Made by a program: the position numbers and the translations under genes | In this document: positions 4,122 through 17,044 of the stretch, piece by piece | Position numbering within the stretch: position 1 is the stretch's first letter | Layout of the letters: each line of letters begins with the position of its first letter | The notes under the pieces: model-generated | Database searches by the model: none | What the model saw: only the letters and a program-made list of their open reading frames with translations | Told to the model about the DNA's origin: nothing | NCBI GenBank assembly: GCA_025453525.1 | Contig: JALOQD010000020.1 | Location: 1 to 35,711 of the forward strand | DNA: 35,711 nt | From: Myxococcota bacterium | GTDB lineage: Bacteria; Myxococcota_A; Polyangia; JAAYKL01 | Direction: 5' to 3'

Positions 4122-4718
4122 TCAGCGGGGTCTCTTGTCCCCAGGACGGGCAAAGCCCTTGGCCCACAAGCCCAGGCCTTTTTCTTTTGCCGCGGCCTGG
4201 GCTGCCTCGAGCTGCGCCGCGTACTTGCCCTTGCCAAAGCGCGTGTAGAACCGCGTCCAGCCCGACTCGACCATGGCCAGGCTGAGATTGCGGTCGCCGG
4301 CGAACACGTAGGCCAGGAGCCTGCCATAGCGATCTCGCTCGAGGTCGGACCCGGTCTCGGGCTCGAGGCGCAGGGGCCTTTCTCGGATGAGCTCCTCGAG
4401 AGTCTGGGTGGCTTCTCGGTATCCGGGCTCGCCCTTTTCCGGGGTGTTGGTGCGCAGCAGGCGCACGTATTCCTGCACTCCGGCGCGCCGCACCTTGAGC
4501 GTGTCGCCGTCCACGACCTTGAGGAGCTCGATGGGATAGGGGCCCCTCTGCGGTGGTTCCTGCGCCTCGGGCTGGGACGCTTTCGCGCCAGGCTCGCGCA
4601 AAAACGGCGCGATCGTGCGGTACAGCGCGCCGCCAGCGGCCAGCGCCATGATGAGAATGAGCGCCGTGCGCTTGGTGGCGAGCCGCGAACGCCGTATCGG
4701 TCCGGTCCGGGTGGTCAT
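4122..4718 (-). CDS. Membrane-anchored staphylococcal-nuclease-like (thermonuclease) protein
   Basis: The product has 198 residues. Residues 17-33 form one hydrophobic segment after a basic N-terminus, which suggests an anchor or uncleaved signal with the catalytic domain outside the cytoplasm. Residues about 62-190 match the SNase fold, with VDGDTLKV (Asp72 at the Asp21 position of the S. aureus enzyme), RLL (Arg86 = Arg35), TPE (Glu94 = Glu43) and DRYGRLLAY (Arg133 = Arg87). The calcium ligand Asp40 is replaced by Asn91. Members of the family cut DNA or RNA using calcium; this change may alter metal binding, so activity is uncertain. The start codon overlaps the dihydroorotase stop as ATGA, so the gene is probably translated by coupling. 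The partnership with a pyrimidine-synthesis gene is not explained by known function. Confidence 0.87.
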   Translation of the reverse strand: MTTRTGPIRRSRLATKRTALILIMALAAGGALYRTIAPFLREPGAKASQPEAQEPPQRGPYPIELLKVVDGDTLKVRRAGVQEYVRLLRTNTPEKGEPGYREATQTLEELIRERPLRLEPETGSDLERDRYGRLLAYVFAGDRNLSLAMVESGWTRFYTRFGKGKYAAQLEAAQAAAKEKGLGLWAKGFARPGDKRPR

Positions 4719-6049
4719 CCGCGCTCCGAGGTTTCACAGGCATTGCGCCCGCGGGGCTCTCCGACGATCTTGCCCTGCTCGAACACCACCGCGCCCCGGA
4801 CCATGGTGAGCACGGGCCATCCCCGCAGCACAGCGCCGTGCCACGGGCTCCAGCCGCACCGCGTCCATTGGCTGGCATTGTCGATGAGGTGCTCGCACCT
4901 TGGGTCCACGAGCACCAGGTCCGCGTCCGCGCCTGTTGCGATCCGCCCCTTGCTCGCAAGCCCAAAGAGGCGCGCCGGCGCTTCGGACATATAGGTGAAC
5001 ACCTCGGCCACCGAGCACGAGCCGCGATGGGCCGCGTCCAGCAAAAGGCCCAGGGAGTTCTCCACGCAGGGCACTCCAGAGGGCACGTCCCAGATGTTCG
5101 GCCGGGTCTTTTCTTCCAGGGTGTGGGGCGCGTGATCCGTGGCGATGGCGTCGATGGCGCCGCTGTGCAGGGCCTGCCACAGTGCGTGTCTGTCTGCGGC
5201 GGTCTTGAGCGACGGGTTCATCTTGGCCAGGCCGCCGAGCCGCTCGTAGTCCGAGACATCGAGGAGCAGGTGATGCGGCGCGACCTCGGCAGTGACCACT
5301 TTGCTGCGCAGGGACAGGGCCGTGGCTTCCAGGGCGCTCGACACATGGGCGATGTGCGTGCGGTGCTTGTGGCGAGCCGCGAGGTCCAGGGCGCGCTCAG
5401 TGGCCAAGAGCCCCACGCGGTCGTCCCGCACCACGCTGTGTACAGACGCGTCTGTGCGGTGCTGATGCGCCTTTTGCAGGGCTCGCATGCGGTCTTCGTC
5501 CTCGCAGTGCACGGCGATCACCCAGCTGGGATCGGTCTGGCCGAACAGGAGCTCGAGCGCTTCCTGTTTGTCGACGAGCAGGTCACCGGTCGAGGCGCCG
5601 AGGAAGAGCTTGATTCCACAATGGCCCGTGGACTTGCGCAGCTCGTCGAGATTGTGGGGCGTGGCGCCGATGAACACGCCGAAATCCACATGGCTGCCTG
5701 CCGCGGCCAGGGATAGCTTGTCGCGCACGCGCTGCGCTGTCGTCGTTGGGGGATGGGTGTTGGGCATGTCGAAGAACGTGGTCACGCCGCCGGCGGCACA
5801 GGCCATGGAGCCAGAGGCAAAACACTCCTTGTGCGTCGCGCCGGGGTCTCGCATGTGCACATGGGCATCGACGAGCCCTGGACCGAGCAGCATCCCGGTG
5901 GCGTCGATCGTGCGCGCCGCGCTGCGAGCCAAGGCCGGCCCGACCTCGGCGATCACGCCGTCCTCGACGAGCACCTCGACTTCTTCGATCCCCTGCTCTC
6001 TGCCGCGGAACACCCGCGCTCCAGTGATCTTTATGCTGCCTGGCTTCAC
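4715..6049 (-). CDS. pyrC: Dihydroorotase
   Basis: Dihydroorotase interconverts N-carbamoyl-aspartate and dihydroorotate, the third step of pyrimidine synthesis in the cytoplasm. The 444-residue product has the metal-binding HVHMRDPG near residue 63, the lysine of GIKLFLG (about residue 147) that is usually carboxylated, His in AVHCEDE (about 180) and HIAHVSS (about 234), and the catalytic Asp of ATDHAPH (about 304). This is the class I pattern, close to allantoinases and other cyclic amidohydrolases; DPGATHKE favours dihydroorotase. I chose the GTG at 6049 because AAGGAG lies 8 nt upstream. An in-frame ATG at 6076 lacks such a site and would add 9 residues. The stop overlaps the nuclease start by ATGA. 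Confidence 0.93.
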   Translation of the reverse strand: MKPGSIKITGARVFRGREQGIEEVEVLVEDGVIAEVGPALARSAARTIDATGMLLGPGLVDAHVHMRDPGATHKECFASGSMACAAGGVTTFFDMPNTHPPTTTAQRVRDKLSLAAAGSHVDFGVFIGATPHNLDELRKSTGHCGIKLFLGASTGDLLVDKQEALELLFGQTDPSWVIAVHCEDEDRMRALQKAHQHRTDASVHSVVRDDRVGLLATERALDLAARHKHRTHIAHVSSALEATALSLRSKVVTAEVAPHHLLLDVSDYERLGGLAKMNPSLKTAADRHALWQALHSGAIDAIATDHAPHTLEEKTRPNIWDVPSGVPCVENSLGLLLDAAHRGSCSVAEVFTYMSEAPARLFGLASKGRIATGADADLVLVDPRCEHLIDNASQWTRCGWSPWHGAVLRGWPVLTMVRGAVVFEQGKIVGEPRGRNACETSERG

Positions 6050-6057
6050 GTCCCTCG

Positions 6058-6063
6058 CTCCTT
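6058..6063 (-). promoter_or_regulatory. Ribosome binding site deciding the dihydroorotase start
   Basis: On the minus strand AAGGAG lies 8 nt before GTG at 6049. The in-frame ATG further upstream, at 6076, has no purine-rich site before it, so the GTG is preferred. Confidence 0.6.
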
Positions 6064-6215
6064 GTCGCGGCGCCATTTGAAACGTCAGAACATCGGATTG
6101 TAGCCAGAGGGCTCGCGGGATACAACCTCGCGGACCGCTCCCCAGGCTCCCAGCGCTCGCCGCTCACGATGGCGTCGGTCCGGCGCACGCCGCGTTTTTT
6201 AGGTGGGTCACGCCG

Positions 6216-6241: not shown

Positions 6242-6310
6242 TCCCTGCGATTTTCAATTGTCGCTCGCTGGCACGAACCTTGATCCCCACCGCGGGGCAC
6301 TGGAGGCCAG

Positions 6311-7366
6311 ATGGGTATTTACGACAAAAGCTATCAACTCTTGTTTTCGCATCCGCAGATGGTGCGCGATCTCATCCAAGGCTATGTCCATGAGGACTGG
6401 GTACAGGATCTCGATTTCGCCAGCCTCGAAAGAGCCAGCGGAAGATACACCTCGAGCAAGCTGGTCAGCCGCGAGCAGGACGTCGTGTGGCGGGCGCGGC
6501 TGCGGAGCAGCGAGATTGTGCTCTACATCCTCATGGAGCTGCAAGCTCGACCCGAGAAGCTCATGGCGGTGCGGATGATGGGTTACCTCGCTGGCCTCTA
6601 CGAACGCCTGGCGCGAGAGCGCAAGCTTTGCGGCGGGCTCTTGCCGCCGGTATTCCCGATCGTGCTCTACCGGGGTAAACGGCGGTGGAGCGCGCCTTGC
6701 ACAACGGCCGACCTCATCGCCCCAGCCAGCGAAGATCTGCGGCGCTACACGCCGCGTGTCGAATTTCTCCTGTTGGAGGAACGAGAGCTGGAACCGGCCA
6801 GTCCTCCTGAGCACAACCTTGCGAGCAGTTTGTTCGCGCTAGAGCATTCGCAAGAGCCAGAGATTATACTAAAAGTGCTGCGCGACCTGGCCTTGCGCCT
6901 CAGCCGGCCGGAGCAGCGCGACCTGCGCCAAGGTTTCTCAGCGCTGGCGCGACAGCTCGCCTGGGAGTGCGATCCAGGCTGGGCCGAGCAGGTCGAGATG
7001 GACATCGATATCGCGGAGGTGGCCATGACGATAAAAAGCCGAATGAAGATTTGGGAGAAAAACTACAAAGCCAAGGTGCTCGCCAGAATTTTGGAAGAGG
7101 GCAAAGCAGAGGGCAAAGCACAGGGGAAAGCAGAGGGCAAAGAAGAGGGCAGAGCCGAGGGCAGAGCCGAGGGCAGAGCCGAGGGCAGAGCCGAGGCGAA
7201 GAAGGCCCTTCTCCAAAAGCTGTTGGAAAAGAAGTTTGGCCCCTTGTCTCCGGTCGAACGCGAGCTCATCGAAAACGCCGACCACGAACAAGTGGAGGCT
7301 TGGACGTTGCGCATTTTCGACGCAGCAAGTCTCGGGGAGCTTCTTCTGCCCTCATCTCGCCCTTGA
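6311..7366 (+). CDS. Rpn-family PD-(D/E)XK nuclease, full-length form (RpnL-like)
   Basis: The 351-residue product belongs to the recombination-promoting nuclease/putative transposase (Rpn, PDDEXK_2) family. The N-terminus (YDKSYQLLFSHPQMVRDLI) is typical. The nuclease core has Asp57 in QDVVWR and the E-x-Q pair of LMELQ (Glu76, Gln78), followed by the usual Met/Tyr-rich helix. Residues about 230-300 form a charged helix with eight four-residue repeats (EGKA/EGRA type), then a short C-terminal domain. In the family the full-length protein is a DNA endonuclease that is toxic and can protect against phages. A separately translated C-terminal fragment is known to inhibit it, and a good internal start is present here (see the entry at 7025). 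GGAGG lies 4 nt before the ATG. No transposon ends were seen, so this is not an active insertion sequence. Confidence 0.88.
   Translation: MGIYDKSYQLLFSHPQMVRDLIQGYVHEDWVQDLDFASLERASGRYTSSKLVSREQDVVWRARLRSSEIVLYILMELQARPEKLMAVRMMGYLAGLYERLARERKLCGGLLPPVFPIVLYRGKRRWSAPCTTADLIAPASEDLRRYTPRVEFLLLEERELEPASPPEHNLASSLFALEHSQEPEIILKVLRDLALRLSRPEQRDLRQGFSALARQLAWECDPGWAEQVEMDIDIAEVAMTIKSRMKIWEKNYKAKVLARILEEGKAEGKAQGKAEGKEEGRAEGRAEGRAEGRAEAKKALLQKLLEKKFGPLSPVERELIENADHEQVEAWTLRIFDAASLGELLLPSSRP
7025..7366 (+). CDS. Putative intragenic RpnS-like inhibitor, in-frame C-terminal product of the Rpn gene
   Basis: Inside the Rpn gene, and in the same frame, GGAGG at 7015-7019 stands 5 nt before ATG at 7025. 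That is a stronger site than at most starts in this window. Translation from it gives a 113-residue protein that begins MTIKSRMKIWEKN. It contains the whole helix of eight four-residue repeats and the C-terminal domain, but none of the nuclease core. Published work on enterobacterial Rpn proteins showed such a separately made C-terminal product (RpnS). It dimerises through a helix carrying a variable number of four-residue repeats and blocks the toxic full-length protein. The match in layout is close, but expression here is inferred. Nearby in-frame ATGs at 6998 and 7043 are weaker alternatives. Confidence 0.55.
   Translation: MTIKSRMKIWEKNYKAKVLARILEEGKAEGKAQGKAEGKEEGRAEGRAEGRAEGRAEAKKALLQKLLEKKFGPLSPVERELIENADHEQVEAWTLRIFDAASLGELLLPSSRP
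7097..7192 (+). repeat. Eight tandem 12-bp repeats in the Rpn C-terminal helix
   Basis: The unit is GAGGGCARAGCM, with exactly eight consecutive 12-nt copies. The last four are identical (GAGGGCAGAGCC); the first four vary at one to three bases. Each copy encodes four residues (EGKA, QGKA, EGKE or EGRA). Because 12 is a multiple of 3, gain or loss of copies keeps the frame and changes only the helix length. Confidence 0.92.
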
Positions 7367-7844: not shown

Positions 7845-9026
7845 TCAGAAGGAGAGTCGCCGCAGCCGCTCGCAGGCTTTCTCGACATCGTCCACGCTCG
7901 GCGTGAGGGAAAGGCGCACGTAGTCGCGGCCTGGGTTGCGGCCATCGGGCAGCGGTTCGGAAATGAGCTCGCCGGGAATGCCTACGATGGCCACCTCTGG
8001 CCGGAGCAAGGCCTGGGCGAGGTCCAATCCGGTCATGCCGCAGGGCGCCTTTTGCCACAGGTACACCGTGCCCTGGGGCAAAGCGGCCTGCAGGCCCGCA
8101 GCGCGCAGGGCCGCGACGAGCATGTCGGCCTTTTGGAGGTATTCGGCGCGCATCTGCTCCACATGGGTCTCGTCGCGCAGCGCCGCGGTGGCCGCGTCTT
8201 GGATGAAGGTGGCGGCTCCGGAGTCGAGGTTGGTTTTGACCTTGCGAAATCCCGCGACAATACGGGGATCGCCTGCCACCCAGCCGATGCGATAACAGGT
8301 CATGGCCGAGCGCTTGGAAAGGGAGTTGAAGACGACCACGCCGTCTTTGCCCACTTCGAGAGCCGAGGGCGGGGGCGCCTCTGTGTACCACAGCTCGCTG
8401 TAGGCCTCGTCGGACGCGAGGATGATGCCGCGAGCCTGACACCAGGCATAGGCGTTTTTGTAGAATGCGAGATCCGCGCAGCGACCCGTGGGCGAATTGG
8501 GGTAGTTGACCCACAACACCTTGGCTCTGTCCGCCACAGCGTCTGGAATGGCTAAGAGGTCTGGCAAAAAGCCCGCCTGGGCGTCGAGGGGATAGAACCA
8601 CGGCGTGCCTTCGGCGAACAGGGCGCCGCGGCTGTAGGGCGGATACCCGGGCGAGGGCGCGAGCACCACGTCTCCGGGATCGACGAAGGCCTCGGCAAAG
8701 TGGAAGATACCCTCCTTGGAGCCGATCGTGGTGCTCACTTCGGAATCGGCATCCACAGTCACGCCGAACCGCGCCGCCGTCCACCCTGCCACGGCCTGCC
8801 TGAACCCCAGATCGCCGATGGTGCTCGGATAGCCCGCGGTCGCCCGCTCGTCGACGGCCTCTTGGCAAGCGCGCCGGATGAGCTCAGGCGTGGCCACGGC
8901 TGGATCGCCGACGCCGAGATCCACCGGGTCAGCGCCAGCCTCGCGCAAGAGCCGCACTTTCTCGTCGATGACCGCGAACGCGTAGGCCGGCAGCGCCGAC
9001 AGACGGCGGGCGAGGCGAATGTCCAT
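7845..9026 (-). CDS. PLP-dependent class I/II aminotransferase, DapL/DapC-like
   Basis: The 393-residue product has all fold-type I landmarks: NYPNSPTG (Asn177), SDEAY (Asp206), the PLP-binding Lys238 in NSLSKRS followed by Arg246, and a C-terminal substrate Arg in YVRLSL. The N-terminus (RLSALPAYAFAVIDEK, then LGVGDPAVATP) is like LL-diaminopimelate aminotransferases of the DapL2 type and N-succinyl-DAP aminotransferases, so a role in lysine and peptidoglycan precursor synthesis is likely. Other acyclic amino-acid substrates cannot be excluded. The start has GGGAGG 4 nt upstream, overlapping the stop of the elongation factor gene 9 nt before, so the two form an operon. Aspartate kinase of the same pathway is about 20 kb away. 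Confidence 0.87.
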   Translation of the reverse strand: MDIRLARRLSALPAYAFAVIDEKVRLLREAGADPVDLGVGDPAVATPELIRRACQEAVDERATAGYPSTIGDLGFRQAVAGWTAARFGVTVDADSEVSTTIGSKEGIFHFAEAFVDPGDVVLAPSPGYPPYSRGALFAEGTPWFYPLDAQAGFLPDLLAIPDAVADRAKVLWVNYPNSPTGRCADLAFYKNAYAWCQARGIILASDEAYSELWYTEAPPPSALEVGKDGVVVFNSLSKRSAMTCYRIGWVAGDPRIVAGFRKVKTNLDSGAATFIQDAATAALRDETHVEQMRAEYLQKADMLVAALRAAGLQAALPQGTVYLWQKAPCGMTGLDLAQALLRPEVAIVGIPGELISEPLPDGRNPGRDYVRLSLTPSVDDVEKACERLRRLSF

Positions 9027-9797: not shown

Positions 9798-10730
9798 ATG
9801 AGCCATTCCAGCCAGCCGATTCTCGAGCCGTTCACCGTGGCAGAGGACGAGCGCATCGAAGCGTGCGTGCCGAGCCGCGGCCGCAACCCCAACCTGTGCG
9901 TGCTTCTCCAGGCCCTGCGCACCCAGACGTTTCAAGGTTTCGACGTCACAGTGCTCGACGATAACCCAGACACCTCCTTGCGAGACGACTTCACTGTGCG
10001 GGCCATGCTCGACCTGCTCGAGCTCGAGGGCCACCGCTGTCGCATCCTGCGCGGTCCCTGCCAAGGCCTCATGTACGCCCAGAACACCCTGCTCATGGCG
10101 AGCAAGAAGCGCCTCGTGGCCCGGCTCGACGACGACACCGTGCCGCAACCCCACACCCTCGAGCGGCTCATGAAAATCTTGCTGGAGGACAATAAAGGAG
10201 ACGTTGCGGCGGTCTCTGGTCCGATCCCGGCGTTCGTGGGCGGCAAGCTCGCCGACTACGCCCTGCCAGATCCCCAGTCCCTGGCCCAGTACGCGGCCTT
10301 CGAGACTCCACAGACGCGCTACGTGCACCCAGAGGGCGCCGCGCCGCGCCGCATGACCTCTCTTTACAGCAGCTTCATCTACAAACGAGCTTGGTTCGTC
10401 ACAGCGGGCGGGTTTTCCTTGAGCTACTCGCGCATCGCCGAAAAGGAGGATGCGGACATCACCCTGCGCGTCGCCTTTCTCGGGGGCGTTCTGGTGTTCG
10501 TTCCCAGCGCCCTGTCCTGGCATCTCAAGGCGCCCATGGGCGGCATCCGGCACCTGTCGAACGAAGAACGGCAGCAGCTGTTCACCGCCGACTACCTCAA
10601 CTTCGTCGAGCGAGCCAAAACCCTCGGCCAGGGCGAGTTTCCCTGGGAGCGCGAGCGCCAAGCCAACCTCGAGCCCTTTCAAAAATGGCTGGAGCTCGAG
10701 GACGAGGCCCGAGGCTACATCGAAAGATAA
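9798..10730 (+). CDS. Family 2 glycosyltransferase
   Basis: The product has 310 residues. A GT-A fold is visible: EACVPSRGRNP and VTVLDDNPD form the nucleotide-sugar half, and LDDDT at residues 110-114 is the metal-binding acidic motif after a long insertion. The second half has GGFS, EKEDADITLR (the probable catalytic Glu/Asp region) and a Trp/His-rich end. There is no transmembrane segment, so it is a soluble or peripheral cytoplasmic enzyme. Sugar and acceptor cannot be told; no polysaccharide cluster surrounds it. Only a weak purine stretch (TAGGGC) precedes the ATG. The last 16 nt overlap the end of the convergent UvrA-like gene. Confidence 0.85.
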   Translation: MSHSSQPILEPFTVAEDERIEACVPSRGRNPNLCVLLQALRTQTFQGFDVTVLDDNPDTSLRDDFTVRAMLDLLELEGHRCRILRGPCQGLMYAQNTLLMASKKRLVARLDDDTVPQPHTLERLMKILLEDNKGDVAAVSGPIPAFVGGKLADYALPDPQSLAQYAAFETPQTRYVHPEGAAPRRMTSLYSSFIYKRAWFVTAGGFSLSYSRIAEKEDADITLRVAFLGGVLVFVPSALSWHLKAPMGGIRHLSNEERQQLFTADYLNFVERAKTLGQGEFPWERERQANLEPFQKWLELEDEARGYIER

Positions 10731-13700
10731 CCCCGCGCGGCAAGGGCCAAACCCGTGTGAGACGCACGGCACGCTTGCACGAGCGCCGGAGGTCCCTCCA
10801 CGACGACTCGACCGCCTCCCTCGCCTCCTTCTGGCCCCAGGTCGATGATCCAGTCCGCAGCCGCGACGAGGTCGAGGTTGTGCTCCACGACGACGACCAA
10901 GTGACCAGCTTCCACCAGTTCGTGGAGGTGGGCGACGAGTCGGTCCACGTCATCGAGGCCCAGCCCGCGGGTCGGTTCATCGAGGAGCACGGCGGCTTTC
11001 TGCTGATTAGTGCTCCGGAGCAGCAAGCCGAGGCGCAGGCGCTGCAGCTCGCCCGCAGAGAGGGTCTTGGCCTCCTGCCCGAGCCTCAAATAGGACAGGC
11101 CGAGGTCGCACAGAGCGCGCAGCGGCGCAGTGAGCGCCGCGTCCTTTTCGAAGCGCGAGGCGACTTCGCCAATGGGCGTCTCCAGGAGCTGCGCGATGTC
11201 GCGCCCAAAAAGGTTGCACTCGAGGACGCGGTCCCCGAATTTTTGGCCTCCGCACGCCTCACAGCCCACAGTGACGTCGGGAAGCAGATCCATGGGAATC
11301 GTCACAGAGCCCCGGCCTTCACACTCTTCGCAGCGCCCGCCCGGGCTCGCGGTGGAGAAGTGCTTGGCCAAAAGGCCCAATGCCCGGGCCTGCTCGGTGG
11401 CGGCAAAGCGCTTGCGCAAGACCTCTGCCACACCGCACAAGGTGGCCACTGTGCTCTGGCCTCCCCCTGTCGAGGCCCCCTGACGGAGCGACAACACCTC
11501 ATCCACCGGCGTGTGCAGCTCCAGATCCTGACAACCCACGCACGGCGCTCCGCGCAGCCGCGCTTCGATGGACCGCCCAAGGACCTCATGCACCAGGGTC
11601 GACTTTCCACTGCCCGACACCCCGGTCACGGCGATGAACACTCCTGCCGGAAACGAGACCTCAAGGTCCCGCAGATTGTGCTGCCGGGCGCCGCGCACCG
11701 TGACTCCTGGCCGCGGCGCGCGGGGCGTGCGAGCTGGTGCGCGGCGAGCGGCTCGCAGCAAACGGGCCGTATGGCTTTGCGGCAAAAGCTCGCTGGGTGG
11801 GCCAAAGGCCGTGATCTGGCCGCCCATGGGTCCAGACGAAGGGCCGAGCTCCACCACCAGGTCGGCCTTGGCGACGAGGGCTGCATCGTGCTCCACGACC
11901 ACCACGGCATTGCCCGCATCTGCCAAACCGCGCAGCACGCCGCACAAGCGCTCCACGTCGCGCGTGTGCAGGCCCTTGGTCGGCTCATCCAACACGTAGG
12001 TAATTCCCACCAGGCCCCCACCCAAGGCCGAGGCGAGGCGCAGGCGCGCAAGCTCGCCGCCGCTCAAGGACGAGGCCTGGCGATCGGCGCTCAAGTACCC
12101 GAGCCCGGCATCGAGGAGCAGCCCGAGCCTGTGCGACAATTCTGCCCGGAGAGGAGCGCTCGCCTCGAGCTCCCATGCGGATAGGCCCAGCTTCGCTGGC
12201 TCGGCTTCCATGGCATCGAACCAGTCGCGCAACTGCTCGAGAGAGCCTTTGAGCGCTTCGGGCAAGCGCTGGCCAGCCAGAGACACGCTCCTCGGCTCTG
12301 GTCTGAGGCGCTCGCCGAGGCACTCGGAGCACGGAACCTCGCCCATCAGACCTTCGAGGGATTCGCCGCTCGCTCCGGCATGGGTCCTCTCGTGCTCGCG
12401 CTCCACCAGGGACAGAAGGCCTGGCCACGTCGCATGGAAGCGATGCGCTCCTTGTCGCTTGCCGCGTTTGTAGCGCCACTCCACTTCGAAAACCCGGTCC
12501 AGGGCGCCTTCGAGGCACAGGGTCTTTTCCCTTTGCCCCAAGGTTGACCACGGCAGGCTCACATCGAGACCAAAGCTCGCCGCCGCCGCGGCCAGAGTCG
12601 CCATGTGCTGGCCGTGGGGCTCGCCGAGATAGGAACCGAATCGCGAACCCTGCATCGCTCCTGCGTGGAGTGGCCGGTCTGGATGGGTGATGAGGGCGGC
12701 TGCATCGCACTTTGGGACAAACCCGAGCCCCTTGCAGTGCGGGCAGGCGCCAGCCTCGGTGTTGGACGAGAACGCACCGGCCCAGAGCCTCGGGCGCACA
12801 GAGCCGCACGCGCAGGCAGAGAGACCGGCGAGCTCCCCGCACCCTTCGCAGGTTCGCTTTCCGAGGCGGGAGAAGAGCAGGCGCAGCAGCTCGCCGATTT
12901 CGCTCATCGTCCCCACTGTGGAGCGAGGGTTGCGCCGACCCGCGCTGTGCGACACAGACACCGTGGCCTGGAGGTCTGCGGCGCTCTCGAGCCTCGCTCC
13001 GCCTCCGCGCGGCAGGAACCGCCTGGCCCAGGGCGCCACGATGTCGGCAAAGCGAGCTTCCGCCTCGGTGAGGAGCGTATCGAACACCAAGGAGGACTTG
13101 CCGCTGCCGCTCGGACCGGTTACGACGCACAACCCCCGCGCTGGAATCTGGATATCGATGGCGCGCAGGTTGTGGGTGGAGACTCCGTTGAGAGCCATGG
13201 GCGGAGGGTTCTCGGGTCGAACCCGGGGGCCGCTTGGGTCTGGTTGTCGCCCGTCTCGTAAGCACTGGGCCGTGATCGAGCCGAGGCAACGCTCGAGCTC
13301 TTCGGGCAGTCCCTGGAACACGATCCGCCCACCGTCTGGACCACTCCCTGGACCGATATCGATGACGCGATCGGCGCAGCGCGCGAGCTCGAGGTCGTTG
13401 TCCGCGACGAGCAGCGTATGCCCCGCGTCCAACAATCGATCCCAGGCCCGCAGCATCGAGGCCATGTCTGCGCCGTGCAAGCCATTGCTAGGCTCGTCGA
13501 GGATGAGCAGGGCATTGCCCTTGCCAGCTCCGGCGAGCTCAGTGGCGAGCTTCACTCTCTGGGCCTCGCCGCCCGACAGGGTCGTGGCTGGTTGGCCCAA
13601 GTGCAGATAGCCGAGGCCCATGTCGACGAGCGCGCCGAGAATTCTCCGAAGTTTGGGGTGGTCTGCGAAGAGCTCCACGGCCTCTGCGATACTCGACTCC

Positions 13701-15634
13701 AGGACGTCCGCGATGCTCGCGTCGCGATAGCGCACCTCGAGAACCTCTTCGTGAAAGCGCTTGCCGCCACACGTCTCGCAGACGAGGTCTACCGAGCCGA
13801 GGTAGCGCATGCCGATCTCGATCGCGCCTGCGCCTTGGCACGCCTCACACCGTCCCCCGGTCGTGTTGAACGAAAAGCTGCCCTTGGAGAGGGCTCTCGC
13901 CTTGGCCTGCGGCGAGGCCGCGAACACAGCGCGGATCTCGTCGAACGCGCCGCTGTAGGTGGCCGGATTGGACCGAGGCGTGCGGCCGATGGGCTCGGCG
14001 TCCACCGTGACGATGCGAGAAAAAGCTCCCTTTTCACCGGTGCGCAGCCTGTTGGCCACAGCGCAGAGCAGCGAGGTCTTGCCCGCACCCGAGACGCCTG
14101 TGACGAGGTTGAGGCCCTGGCGCAGAAACTCGAGGTCCGCGTGATGGAGATTGTGACGAGAAAGAGCGCGCACTTTGACCTGCCCGTTGCCCTGCCGCCG
14201 TTTCCGCATGAACGAGCCGCCGCGCAGCCAGGTCATGGTGGGACTGGCAGGCTCTGCACAAGAGGCGAGAAGCTCTGACGGGGGACCGCTCCAAAGCAAC
14301 TGTCCGCCGAGGCTCCCAGGGCCTGGGCCCAAATCGACGAGCCAATCCGCACTGCGGGCCACCATGGCGTCATGCTCGACGGCGATGACCGTTTGGCCTT
14401 TGTCCCGCAGGCGCCGCAGAACGCTCAGGAGCTTTCCCGTGTCGTGGGGATGCAGTCCGGCTGTGGGCTCGTCCAGCACCATCACCAGGCCCCGCAGCTC
14501 TCCGAGCGCGAGGGACGCAAGGCGCAACCGCTGGGCTTCTCCCATGCTGAGGGTCGGCGCGGCCCGGTCGAACGCCAAGGACGAGAGACCGAGCTCTTCT
14601 AGAAGGTCGCACCGCGCCTCGATATCCTCGCAGATGGGGCCTGCCACGGCGAGCTCCCGGCCAGTGTGCGCGCTGGCTGCCAAAAACGCCCGCAAGCTCG
14701 AGGCGTTCATCCCAGAAAGGTCGGCAATGCTCGCGCCCCGCCACCGCACCCCGAGCGCCTCGGGCCGCAGCCTCGCGCCGCCGCAGGTCGGGCATTCCCG
14801 AGTTTGGACATAGCGCAAGATCGAATCATTGCGCTTGCCGCGCAGGATCTCTTCCATGATCGGAACGAGCCCTCGGTAGTATCCCTCTTGCCGTGGCCGA
14901 GCCGTGATGCCCGTCCACTTCATCCGCGATTCCAAGGGGTGTTTGCCAAAGGGGACCTTGCGCCGCTGCGAGCCGTAAAACACAACGTGCCGGACGTCTT
15001 CGGACAAGGTCTGCCAGGGCGTATCGACGTCGCCACCGTGCTCGCGCAGCACTTCATCGAGGACCGCGAGGGTCACCTGGGAGTACATCAGGTAGCCGTT
15101 CCCTGTGCTCACTCGCAACGCGCCGTCGCGCAGAGACTTCGTCGGATCTGCGACGATGAGCTCTGGGTCCAGAGCGTCCATGAGCCCCAAGCCCTTGCAC
15201 GCTCCGCAGGCTCCCTCCTCGCTGTTGAAGGAGAAGAGCGCTCGAGTAGGGACCACACCGCTCTCGGACGTGCCCAAGCGGGCCATGAAGAGGCGCAAAA
15301 GATCGTAGACCTCGGTGATCGTTCCGACTGTGGACCGAGGGTTCTTCAGCACCACCCTGCGACCCACGGCCACGGCCGGACCGAGGCCAGAGAAGCTCGT
15401 GGCCGATGGGCGAGACAGGCCAGCCGAAAACGACCGCGCGTACGAAGGCATTGTCTCTAAAAAACGGCGCTGACCCTCCTGATGGATGGTGTCGAAGGCC
15501 AGGGACGACTTGCCTGACCCAGACACCCCGGTGACCACCGCGAGACTCTCTCGGGGAAGGGCGATGTCGAATCCCGCAAGGTTGTGCTCGCGGGCTTGCC
15601 GGACCACGATATTTTGGTCTTGCCGCTTTGTCAT
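10715..15634 (-). CDS. Tandem double-length UvrA-like ABC ATPase (UvrA2/DrrC-like, lacks UvrB-binding domain)
   Basis: The product has 1639 residues, against about 940 for UvrA, because two UvrA units are fused; the join is near residue 800. There are four Walker A motifs (36-43 GVSGSGKS, 513-520 GVSGAGKT, 840-847 GPSGSGKS, 1338-1345 GVSGSGKS). The four signatures are LSMGE 362, LSGGE 686, LSGGE 1190 and LSAGE 1525, and four Walker B motifs contain DEP (388, 713, 1216, 1552). Both C-terminal ATPase halves keep the DNA-binding zinc module (CEAC/CETC at 596-622; CEEC/CEAC at 1435-1461). In both N-terminal halves the UvrB-binding domain is missing. In unit 1, MARLG is followed after about ten residues by LFSFNSEEGACGAC; unit 2 keeps a shortened zinc-like CEGC/CAC. 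UvrA2 of Deinococcus and DrrC of Streptomyces also lack this domain and are linked to drug or DNA-damage tolerance. A canonical RTPRSNPATY segment survives only in unit 1. The ATG at 15634 starts the homology, but no Shine-Dalgarno is seen. Confidence 0.92.
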   Translation of the reverse strand: MTKRQDQNIVVRQAREHNLAGFDIALPRESLAVVTGVSGSGKSSLAFDTIHQEGQRRFLETMPSYARSFSAGLSRPSATSFSGLGPAVAVGRRVVLKNPRSTVGTITEVYDLLRLFMARLGTSESGVVPTRALFSFNSEEGACGACKGLGLMDALDPELIVADPTKSLRDGALRVSTGNGYLMYSQVTLAVLDEVLREHGGDVDTPWQTLSEDVRHVVFYGSQRRKVPFGKHPLESRMKWTGITARPRQEGYYRGLVPIMEEILRGKRNDSILRYVQTRECPTCGGARLRPEALGVRWRGASIADLSGMNASSLRAFLAASAHTGRELAVAGPICEDIEARCDLLEELGLSSLAFDRAAPTLSMGEAQRLRLASLALGELRGLVMVLDEPTAGLHPHDTGKLLSVLRRLRDKGQTVIAVEHDAMVARSADWLVDLGPGPGSLGGQLLWSGPPSELLASCAEPASPTMTWLRGGSFMRKRRQGNGQVKVRALSRHNLHHADLEFLRQGLNLVTGVSGAGKTSLLCAVANRLRTGEKGAFSRIVTVDAEPIGRTPRSNPATYSGAFDEIRAVFAASPQAKARALSKGSFSFNTTGGRCEACQGAGAIEIGMRYLGSVDLVCETCGGKRFHEEVLEVRYRDASIADVLESSIAEAVELFADHPKLRRILGALVDMGLGYLHLGQPATTLSGGEAQRVKLATELAGAGKGNALLILDEPSNGLHGADMASMLRAWDRLLDAGHTLLVADNDLELARCADRVIDIGPGSGPDGGRIVFQGLPEELERCLGSITAQCLRDGRQPDPSGPRVRPENPPPMALNGVSTHNLRAIDIQIPARGLCVVTGPSGSGKSSLVFDTLLTEAEARFADIVAPWARRFLPRGGGARLESAADLQATVSVSHSAGRRNPRSTVGTMSEIGELLRLLFSRLGKRTCEGCGELAGLSACACGSVRPRLWAGAFSSNTEAGACPHCKGLGFVPKCDAAALITHPDRPLHAGAMQGSRFGSYLGEPHGQHMATLAAAAASFGLDVSLPWSTLGQREKTLCLEGALDRVFEVEWRYKRGKRQGAHRFHATWPGLLSLVEREHERTHAGASGESLEGLMGEVPCSECLGERLRPEPRSVSLAGQRLPEALKGSLEQLRDWFDAMEAEPAKLGLSAWELEASAPLRAELSHRLGLLLDAGLGYLSADRQASSLSGGELARLRLASALGGGLVGITYVLDEPTKGLHTRDVERLCGVLRGLADAGNAVVVVEHDAALVAKADLVVELGPSSGPMGGQITAFGPPSELLPQSHTARLLRAARRAPARTPRAPRPGVTVRGARQHNLRDLEVSFPAGVFIAVTGVSGSGKSTLVHEVLGRSIEARLRGAPCVGCQDLELHTPVDEVLSLRQGASTGGGQSTVATLCGVAEVLRKRFAATEQARALGLLAKHFSTASPGGRCEECEGRGSVTIPMDLLPDVTVGCEACGGQKFGDRVLECNLFGRDIAQLLETPIGEVASRFEKDAALTAPLRALCDLGLSYLRLGQEAKTLSAGELQRLRLGLLLRSTNQQKAAVLLDEPTRGLGLDDVDRLVAHLHELVEAGHLVVVVEHNLDLVAAADWIIDLGPEGGEGGGRVVVEGPPALVQACRASHTGLALAARGYLSM

Positions 15635-15733
15635 AAAGAGATGTGAACCACACAAATGGCGAACCAGACAAGGAGAGGGACAAGCGCGACGAAACCCTTT
15701 CCCCCTCCCAGGCAAACGGCTAGAATCGCCGCC

Positions 15734-17044
15734 ATGACAACATCTATTCATCGCGCTGCCACCGCGTTCGTGGTTCTGTTCTTCATCCTGGCTCCGCTGC
15801 GCGCGAGCGCGCAGAAAAAGGACACGGACTCTGCCGCGCCACCGGCTGCGCCCAGCGCCCCCCCAGCCGCCACTGCGCCCAAGCCACCGGCTGCGCCCAG
15901 CGCCCCCCCAGCCGCCGCCACTGCGCCCAAGCCACCGGCTGCGCCCAGCGCCCCCCCAGCCGCCACTGCGCCCAAGCCACCGGCTGCGCCCAAGCCACCG
16001 GCTGCGCCCAGCTCCGCCCCAGCAGCCGCCCCTGCGCCAAAGCCACCGGCTGTGTCCAGCGCCCCGCAGGCCGACACTGCGTCCACACAACAGGAAGACA
16101 CTGCCAGTCCAGAGACGGACACAGATTCCGCCACAGACGCAGGCACCGACTCCACACCCGCACCGGTCGTGGAAGAGCCCGCAGCCGCTGTGATGCCTCC
16201 TGCCTCGAGCTTCTCAGAAGCAGTCGAGGAGGATCTTCCTCCTCCCAAGCCGCCCATTAGCCGCGGGTTCGTGCCCGGCACCCAAGAGGCTGCCCTGGGC
16301 CTCGCCACGGCTGGATCCGGCGACTACTTCTATTTTGGCGCGAGCGGCCTTTACGCCTACTACGTCATCAAGGGCCTGGCTCCGGGCATCGAGGTCCAAT
16401 ACGCCCATATTTTTTCCGACTTCGACTACCCAGACTCCCTGAGCCTCATGCCGTTCCTCAAGTATGCGTTCACCGTGTCCGAGACCGTGGCGCCCTACCT
16501 GATCATCGGAGGCGGCCGTCAGTTCGAGTGGGGCGCGACCCCGAGCTACTACCAGGCAGATTCCTGGTTCCTCGGAGGCGGCATCGGCGCCCACATCGGT
16601 TTGGGAGAGCGCTGGGCGATCAAAATCCAGGTGCTCTTCCTGCATCATTGGTACGACTCCACCAAGGTGTACGGGCATCGAGACCGAGAGAACTTCCGCG
16701 ATGTCTATGACAACAAATACTGGTGTGAAGGGGACGACTGCCCCGTTCGCGACAGCTCGAAGCTTGACGTCGAGCAGAGCGGCAGGCCTACGTGGTTCGC
16801 TGACGGGGGGTTCGATGAAGCGGGCAAGCCCATCGATGTCGACTGCTCATCCTTTTTAAAAGACCCGGTGGACCCGAAAGACCCGGACCCGAAGGGCCTG
16901 ATGGCGCAAGCTACCTGTGAGCAGGCTGCCTACAAAATCTGCGACGATTCGGGCAAATGCTACGGTCAAACCGACGACCCCGGAGATAGAAAGCGCGAAT
17001 GGATCTATCCGGTCATCACCTTTGGCGTCTCGTTCGTTTTCTAA
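15734..17044 (+). CDS. Outer-membrane barrel protein with Pro/Ala/Lys-rich repeat linker
   Basis: The product has 436 residues. It begins with a signal peptide (about residues 1-27, ending LRASAQ). A low-complexity linker follows to about residue 175: first PKPPAAPSAPPA repeats, then a Thr/Asp/Ser-rich part. The C-terminal 260 residues look like an outer-membrane barrel, with strands rich in Tyr/Phe/Gly and a final FGVSFVF, a C-terminal Phe as in many Bam substrates. Two Cys-containing loop segments (CEGDDC and CEQAAYKICDDSGKC) are predicted surface loops. The linker may span peptidoglycan, but this is inference. The ATG at 15734 is chosen for the signal peptide; an upstream in-frame ATG at 15656 would bury it. 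It is divergent from the UvrA-like gene by 99 nt and shares a direction with the hydrolase gene that begins 8 nt later. Confidence 0.85.
   Translation: MTTSIHRAATAFVVLFFILAPLRASAQKKDTDSAAPPAAPSAPPAATAPKPPAAPSAPPAAATAPKPPAAPSAPPAATAPKPPAAPKPPAAPSSAPAAAPAPKPPAVSSAPQADTASTQQEDTASPETDTDSATDAGTDSTPAPVVEEPAAAVMPPASSFSEAVEEDLPPPKPPISRGFVPGTQEAALGLATAGSGDYFYFGASGLYAYYVIKGLAPGIEVQYAHIFSDFDYPDSLSLMPFLKYAFTVSETVAPYLIIGGGRQFEWGATPSYYQADSWFLGGGIGAHIGLGERWAIKIQVLFLHHWYDSTKVYGHRDRENFRDVYDNKYWCEGDDCPVRDSSKLDVEQSGRPTWFADGGFDEAGKPIDVDCSSFLKDPVDPKDPDPKGLMAQATCEQAAYKICDDSGKCYGQTDDPGDRKREWIYPVITFGVSFVF
15842..16050 (+). repeat. Tandem 45-48-bp repeats encoding the Pro/Ala/Lys linker
   Basis: Three near-identical 45-48-nt units (core GCGCCCAAGCCACCGGCTGC), one short 18-nt unit and one diverged unit lie in a row. 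They encode APKPPAAPSAPPAAT-type repeats. The copies differ by one GCC codon or single bases, which is the pattern expected from slippage or unequal recombination. All length changes seen are multiples of three. Confidence 0.85.

Follow-up and report, generated by a model that had tools for sequence, protein, structure and literature searches.

Anatomy of the rpn locus

The window, i.e. the whole stretch of 35,711 nucleotides analysed here, contains an rpn gene that encodes a protein of 351 residues and is built from the features collected in Table 1. Its N-terminal match to PF04754 (Transposase_31/YhgA-like) reaches 79.5 bits against a Pfam gathering cut-off of 21. Within this region, D5, D57, E76, Q78 and R88 align with D11, D63, E82, Q84 and R94 of E. 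coli RpnA, residues whose mutation abolishes or reduces RpnA activity (PMC5350276). All five are identical, including Asp57, Glu76 and Gln78, which an earlier note on this DNA had listed as intact. Judged by its domains, the gene is an Rpn nuclease (PF04754, COG5464) with a C-terminal DUF4351. Neither a second Rpn nor a stand-alone DUF4351 was detected in the same assembly (89% complete), the DUF4351 of the window gene being the sole match. FliH, TolA and Yae1 also came up as candidates and were rejected as low-complexity matches to the repeat tract.

Table 1 Features of the rpn locus, in window coordinates
Feature	Position	Strand	Evidence
Shine-Dalgarno (SD) GGAGG of the full-length (RpnL) start	6302..6306	+	Sequence; SD energy -9.3
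rpn gene, RpnL-like full-length protein, 351 aa	6311..7366	+	Pfam PF04754 E=3.4e-22, PF14261 E=2.7e-6
Transposase_31 / Rpn PD-(D/E)XK nuclease domain, residues 5-158	6323..6784	+	Pfam, alignment to RpnA
Internal Shine-Dalgarno GGAGG, within A-E-V codons	7015..7019	+	-10.8 kcal/mol; codon-level selection in relatives
Predicted RpnS-like antitoxin, 113 aa, internal ATG (Met239)	7025..7366	+	Start scan, homologue comparison, AlphaFold model
12-nt tandem repeat, 8.4 copies, four-residue GK/R-A-E units of the dimerisation helix	7096..7196	+	
DUF4351 domain (C-terminal RpnS domain), residues 291-344	7181..7342	+	Pfam PF14261

The ATG of Met239 (7025-7027) lies in frame with the open reading frame, and a 5-nt spacer (TGGCC) separates it from the internal GGAGG; at the gene's own start the spacer is 4 nt. 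The ATG and its GGAGG at 5 nt are thus present as the earlier note had described them, and translation from 7025 gives the product that it had announced, 113 residues with the repeat helix and the C-terminal domain only. In the AlphaFold model of the full-length protein, Met239 is located in a low-confidence linker (residues 214-249) that precedes a long helix with a break (242-309) and then the C-terminal helices. Modelled alone, the 113-residue product is predicted to form a long helix (its residues 3-71) followed by short helices. Both models are of moderate confidence; neither gave a significant Foldseek match in the PDB, and a sequence search of solved structures with the window protein yielded no Rpn match.

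Strength of the internal start

SD strength was calculated as the SD:anti-SD energy with the E. coli-type anti-SD ACCUCCUUA, which may not be that of the host; the 16S 3' end pattern was sought in the incomplete host assembly and not found. By this measure, the internal SD (-10.8 kcal/mol) surpasses the one that serves the gene's own start (-9.3 kcal/mol). Among the 152 internal in-frame ATGs of the window's predicted genes, ATG 7025 is the only one at or below -10 kcal/mol. It is also the best start of any kind inside the rpn gene, followed by the TTG of codon 333 (-9.3) and then by a start at -6.1. The SD match in front of this TTG, at 7307 on the + strand, is 19 codons from the protein end and is probably due to chance. 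No internal sigma-70-like promoter was found in the gene, a search that is uninformative for this lineage. When the window gene alone was compared with synonymous shuffles that keep the protein, p was 0.14. Thus, the site taken by itself may be a chance occurrence, and it is raised above chance because the same site recurs in relatives.

Selection on the internal start among Rpn homologues

Homologues were gathered from same-family genomes, a genome collection, plasmids, E. coli K-12 and 379 same-phylum genomes. Redundancy was removed at 85% identity and three sequences belonging to another family were dropped, leaving a set of 123. Nearly the whole gene was scanned for the best SD-plus-start, and the results were compared with 200 synonymous shuffles preserving protein and codon usage. 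Three E. coli genes, rpnA, rpnB and rpnE, served as a positive control, and in each of them Met244 came out on top by this score; Met244 of RpnA is the start of RpnAS, as proven by the mutation M244L (PMC10327210).

In the scan of 122 homologues, the best SD-plus-start fell at one of two adjacent alignment columns in 72 and within columns 862-886 in 85, whereas the shuffles placed 49 on average, and never more than 62, in the same interval. The mean SD energy of the best ATG in the region was -8.1 versus -6.4 in shuffles (Wilcoxon p = 2e-10). Fisher's combination of coarse per-gene values was much weaker (p = 0.03), and 11 of 111 homologues were significant alone at 0.05; so few genes reach significance individually because an SD is moderately likely to arise from the protein sequence itself. 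What the set shows is a consistent shift across genes and not a handful of extreme ones. In contrast, the conserved Met columns 543, 676, 680 and 684, used as controls in the same genes, displayed no excess (p = 0.22, 0.97, 0.84 and 0.89, respectively). After clustering at 50% identity, the two internal-start (iTIS) columns gave p = 3e-4 and 2e-6; p values for the homologue set are not exact because of residual shared ancestry among the sequences. Codon choice was examined as well. Among the genes of the clade to which the window's nearest relatives belong, 31 of 32 use GAG for the Glu that underlies the SD (31:1), while the GAG:GAA ratio at the remaining Glu codons of these genes is 560:482 (Fisher p = 1.5e-7). 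For the other iTIS column, Glu codon choice taken by itself shows no significant bias (p = 0.22).

The earlier note had held that conservation of GGAGG and ATG beyond coding needs in related genomes would speak for internal initiation, and that their loss would speak against it. At the level of the family, the shuffles and the codon test indicate that both elements are kept beyond coding needs, and their loss is not what was found.

Within this pattern, the window site has a spacing of its own. The nearest relatives carry E-V-x-x-M, with eight bases from GGAGG or GAGG to the ATG, whereas the window has E-V-A-M and five. The length from this Glu to a conserved Trp twelve residues on is unchanged, and therefore the window start lies one codon earlier while the SD has not moved. 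E-V-A-M-T-I with 5-nt spacing is the commonest form in the phylum's larger group (GGAGG at 5 nt in 17 of 62). In this one case, then, the Met shifts while the SD-start pair persists, which speaks for selection acting on initiation rather than on the residue itself. The repeats start 25 residues past Met239, as against 10 or 16 in most relatives. Published RpnS repeats begin 8-20 residues past the internal Met (PMC10327210); this is reported as an observed range and not as a requirement, so that the longer distance is not disqualifying.

Could the GGAGG-ATG pair nevertheless be a coding coincidence in this one Rpn gene, which would then make the full-length protein only? The single-gene shuffle result agrees with this, as do the ease with which Glu-Val codons (GAG GTN) give GAGG and the one-codon offset of the window Met from its nearest relatives. 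But the site lies at the position at which codon-level selection maintains SD and start in relatives, and no other internal ATG of the window matches it in strength. We therefore consider coincidence unlikely and internal initiation at the window site likely.

A predicted toxin-antitoxin gene within a gene

In the published design, a toxic nuclease, RpnL, is accompanied by a short RpnS made from an internal start, with four-residue repeats in the dimerising helix (PMC10327210). The likeness to RpnL/RpnS proposed in the earlier note is borne out by the nuclease domain, the repeats, the DUF4351 tail, the internal SD and ATG, and the codon-level selection in relatives. The sequence features of RpnL/RpnS are nearly all recognisable in the window gene, the Met-to-repeat distance being the one departure. 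We put the probability that the locus is an Rpn toxin-antitoxin gene-within-a-gene, encoding an RpnL toxin and an RpnS translated from ATG 7025, at about 0.8. According to this model, full-length RpnL would be a DNA endonuclease toxin, and a second initiation at ATG 7025 would produce the 113-residue C-terminal RpnS. RpnS would pair with the same repeat helix in RpnL and keep the nuclease inactive, until a trigger, e.g. phage infection, releases RpnL. By analogy with the E. coli systems, the window locus would thus be toxic, neutralised by its own short product and active in phage defence.

An internal product might also be made and play a part other than that of an antitoxin: it could complete an oligomer as a structural subunit or assembly partner, in the manner of the internally started Cas11 in Cascade. 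The predicted product consists of the dimerisation helix and C-terminal domain only, RpnA forms a 2:2 tetramer in the published complex (PMC10327210), and sequence data do not separate an inhibitor from a subunit. Experiments on characterised members, however, point to inhibition: the short forms of RpnA, RpnB and RpnP2 counteract growth inhibition or SOS induction, and RpnAS stops DNA cleavage by RpnAL in vitro (PMC10327210). We regard a purely structural role as very unlikely, and an antitoxin role remains the preferred reading of the short product.

Genomic neighbourhood and origin of the window gene

The rpn gene is flanked by a dihydroorotase gene (4715-6076, -) and, downstream, by a PilZ protein gene; an LL-diaminopimelate-type aminotransferase (7845-9026, -), a UvrA-like ATPase and a kinase-TPR protein are also encoded nearby. 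The annotation of these neighbours agrees with the earlier note in showing the adjacent PilZ gene and no defence cluster. RpnL/RpnS genes tend to lie in defence islands, so this location counts against the toxin-antitoxin reading. PADLOC also matched the UvrA-like protein, but apparently as a generic ATPase. At 1791 residues, this protein (10715-16090, -) is roughly double the usual length; its ABC and UvrA DNA-binding matches are spread over several stretches, and it is perhaps a fused double UvrA.

In the tree, the window gene joins a Pseudomonas aeruginosa copy (support 97/95) on a long branch (0.92), apart from the Rpn genes of its own family. The P. aeruginosa copy sits near pilM/pilV and an ICE replication gene. 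This placement suggests that the window gene moved horizontally, and fits what is expected of a mobile defence gene. No relative was found in the viral contigs and phage records searched. An orthologue of the PilZ gene was sought in family relatives for an empty-site comparison; none was found and, as a consequence, no insertion point could be defined. Two further observations concern Rpn genes elsewhere. On the Hydrogenophilus plasmid pTH1 (L054), an Rpn relative with a DUF4351-like tail and an internal GGAGG-ATG lies about 0.7 kb from cas1. In a small same-family genome (G007), the Rpn query gave 24 matches, several of them interrupted by a single stop codon; these may be copies in decay or C-terminal domains on their own.

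The least probable alternative is a DNA-mobilising or transposase-like enzyme: the protein would promote recombination, its activity would be modulated through the internal start, and defence would be secondary or absent. The signs of horizontal transfer, the family name Transposase_31 and the increase in RecA-independent recombination upon RpnA overexpression (PMC5350276) would suit such an enzyme. But the published study of Rpn found no inverted repeats, target-site duplications or autonomous transposition (PMC10327210), the window gene is present in one copy in this genome and no long repeats flank it.

A candidate sister family with the same internal start

Some search matches were made through the repeat region and tail only, and these led to a second family (L016:586-1797 (+), L011, L027, L029, L030 and L173-L262) whose members carry GKAE repeats and, at a conserved internal site, GGAGG 5 nt ahead of an ATG. 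Its N-terminal part has no match in Pfam even at E = 10, and NCBIfam (repeat-tract matches only), PADLOC and PHROGs gave no informative match. Profile comparison, on the other hand, aligned this part to Rpn with 91% probability (E = 1e-6) across most of the nuclease region, with 'RADLVV...VVEVQL' placed over 'DLLF...LLEHQS'; the tails align at 99% probability, a score aided by the repeats. Of 290 genomes in the class, at most 139 contain matches to the family, and a single genome has as many as 11. The figure of 139 is an upper bound, since the repeats may account for weak matches, among them those in the window's own family.

Of 74 non-redundant sister members, 58 have Met at one column, and 40 of these 58 carry GGAGG exactly 5 nt upstream. 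The best internal start falls at that column in 42 of the 74, compared with a shuffle mean of 18 and maximum of 29 (Wilcoxon p = 2e-11). We read the sister family as a putative unrecognised branch of the same kind of system, some members of which may be included in the COG5464 set of Zhong et al. The gene-within-a-gene antitoxin design probably reaches beyond recognised Rpn genes, in that a divergent Rpn-like nuclease family would also make an RpnS-like protein from an internal GGAGG-5 nt-ATG. If so, intragenic toxin-antitoxin pairs would be numerous in the class and have escaped annotation. The family suggests that current HMM libraries underestimate how common intragenic antitoxins are. It is the more novel lead of this work and may matter more than the window locus itself.

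Comparison with known systems

The earlier note had expected the window locus to extend the RpnL/RpnS system, which was an overstatement: rpn genes are already reported in 34 bacterial phyla, RpnS has been linked with DUF4351, and an internal product from a C. difficile rpn gene has been shown (PMC10327210). Published iTIS evidence comprises E. coli and this one C. difficile gene. To this, our comparison adds sequence-only evidence of selection on the Rpn internal start in a phylum-level sample, DUF4351 types included. Since a start codon is indicated for most of these genes, the toxin-antitoxin reading becomes directly testable in non-model bacteria.

Three groups of known genes come closest. 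Firstly, the E. coli systems RpnA-E and RpnP2 (PMC10327210) share with the window gene a PF04754-type nuclease with all five mutated residues, an internal SD and ATG between nuclease and repeats, and a four-residue repeat helix followed by a small helical C-terminal domain. The window gene differs in that its C-terminal domain is DUF4351, its short form has 113 residues against 49 in RpnA, its repeats begin further past the internal Met (25 residues), and it is a single copy outside a defence island; its protein is 21-22% identical to RpnA, RpnB and RpnE. Secondly, the plasmid/ICE-borne Rpn of P. aeruginosa (WP_003149531, L052), nearest in the tree, has a similar tail with an RFGPLS motif and an internal GGAGG and ATG, but is 39% identical over 72% of the length, has a short repeat tract and is located between pilM and an ICE replication gene. 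Thirdly, Rpn proteins from Deltaproteobacteria MAGs and from Gamma- and Betaproteobacteria (L039-L048) are 32-40% identical and have the same Glu-Val SD with an internal Met nearby, whereas their Met comes one codon later, their SD spacing is 8 nt, their repeats mostly begin 16 residues past the Met and several are without DUF4351.
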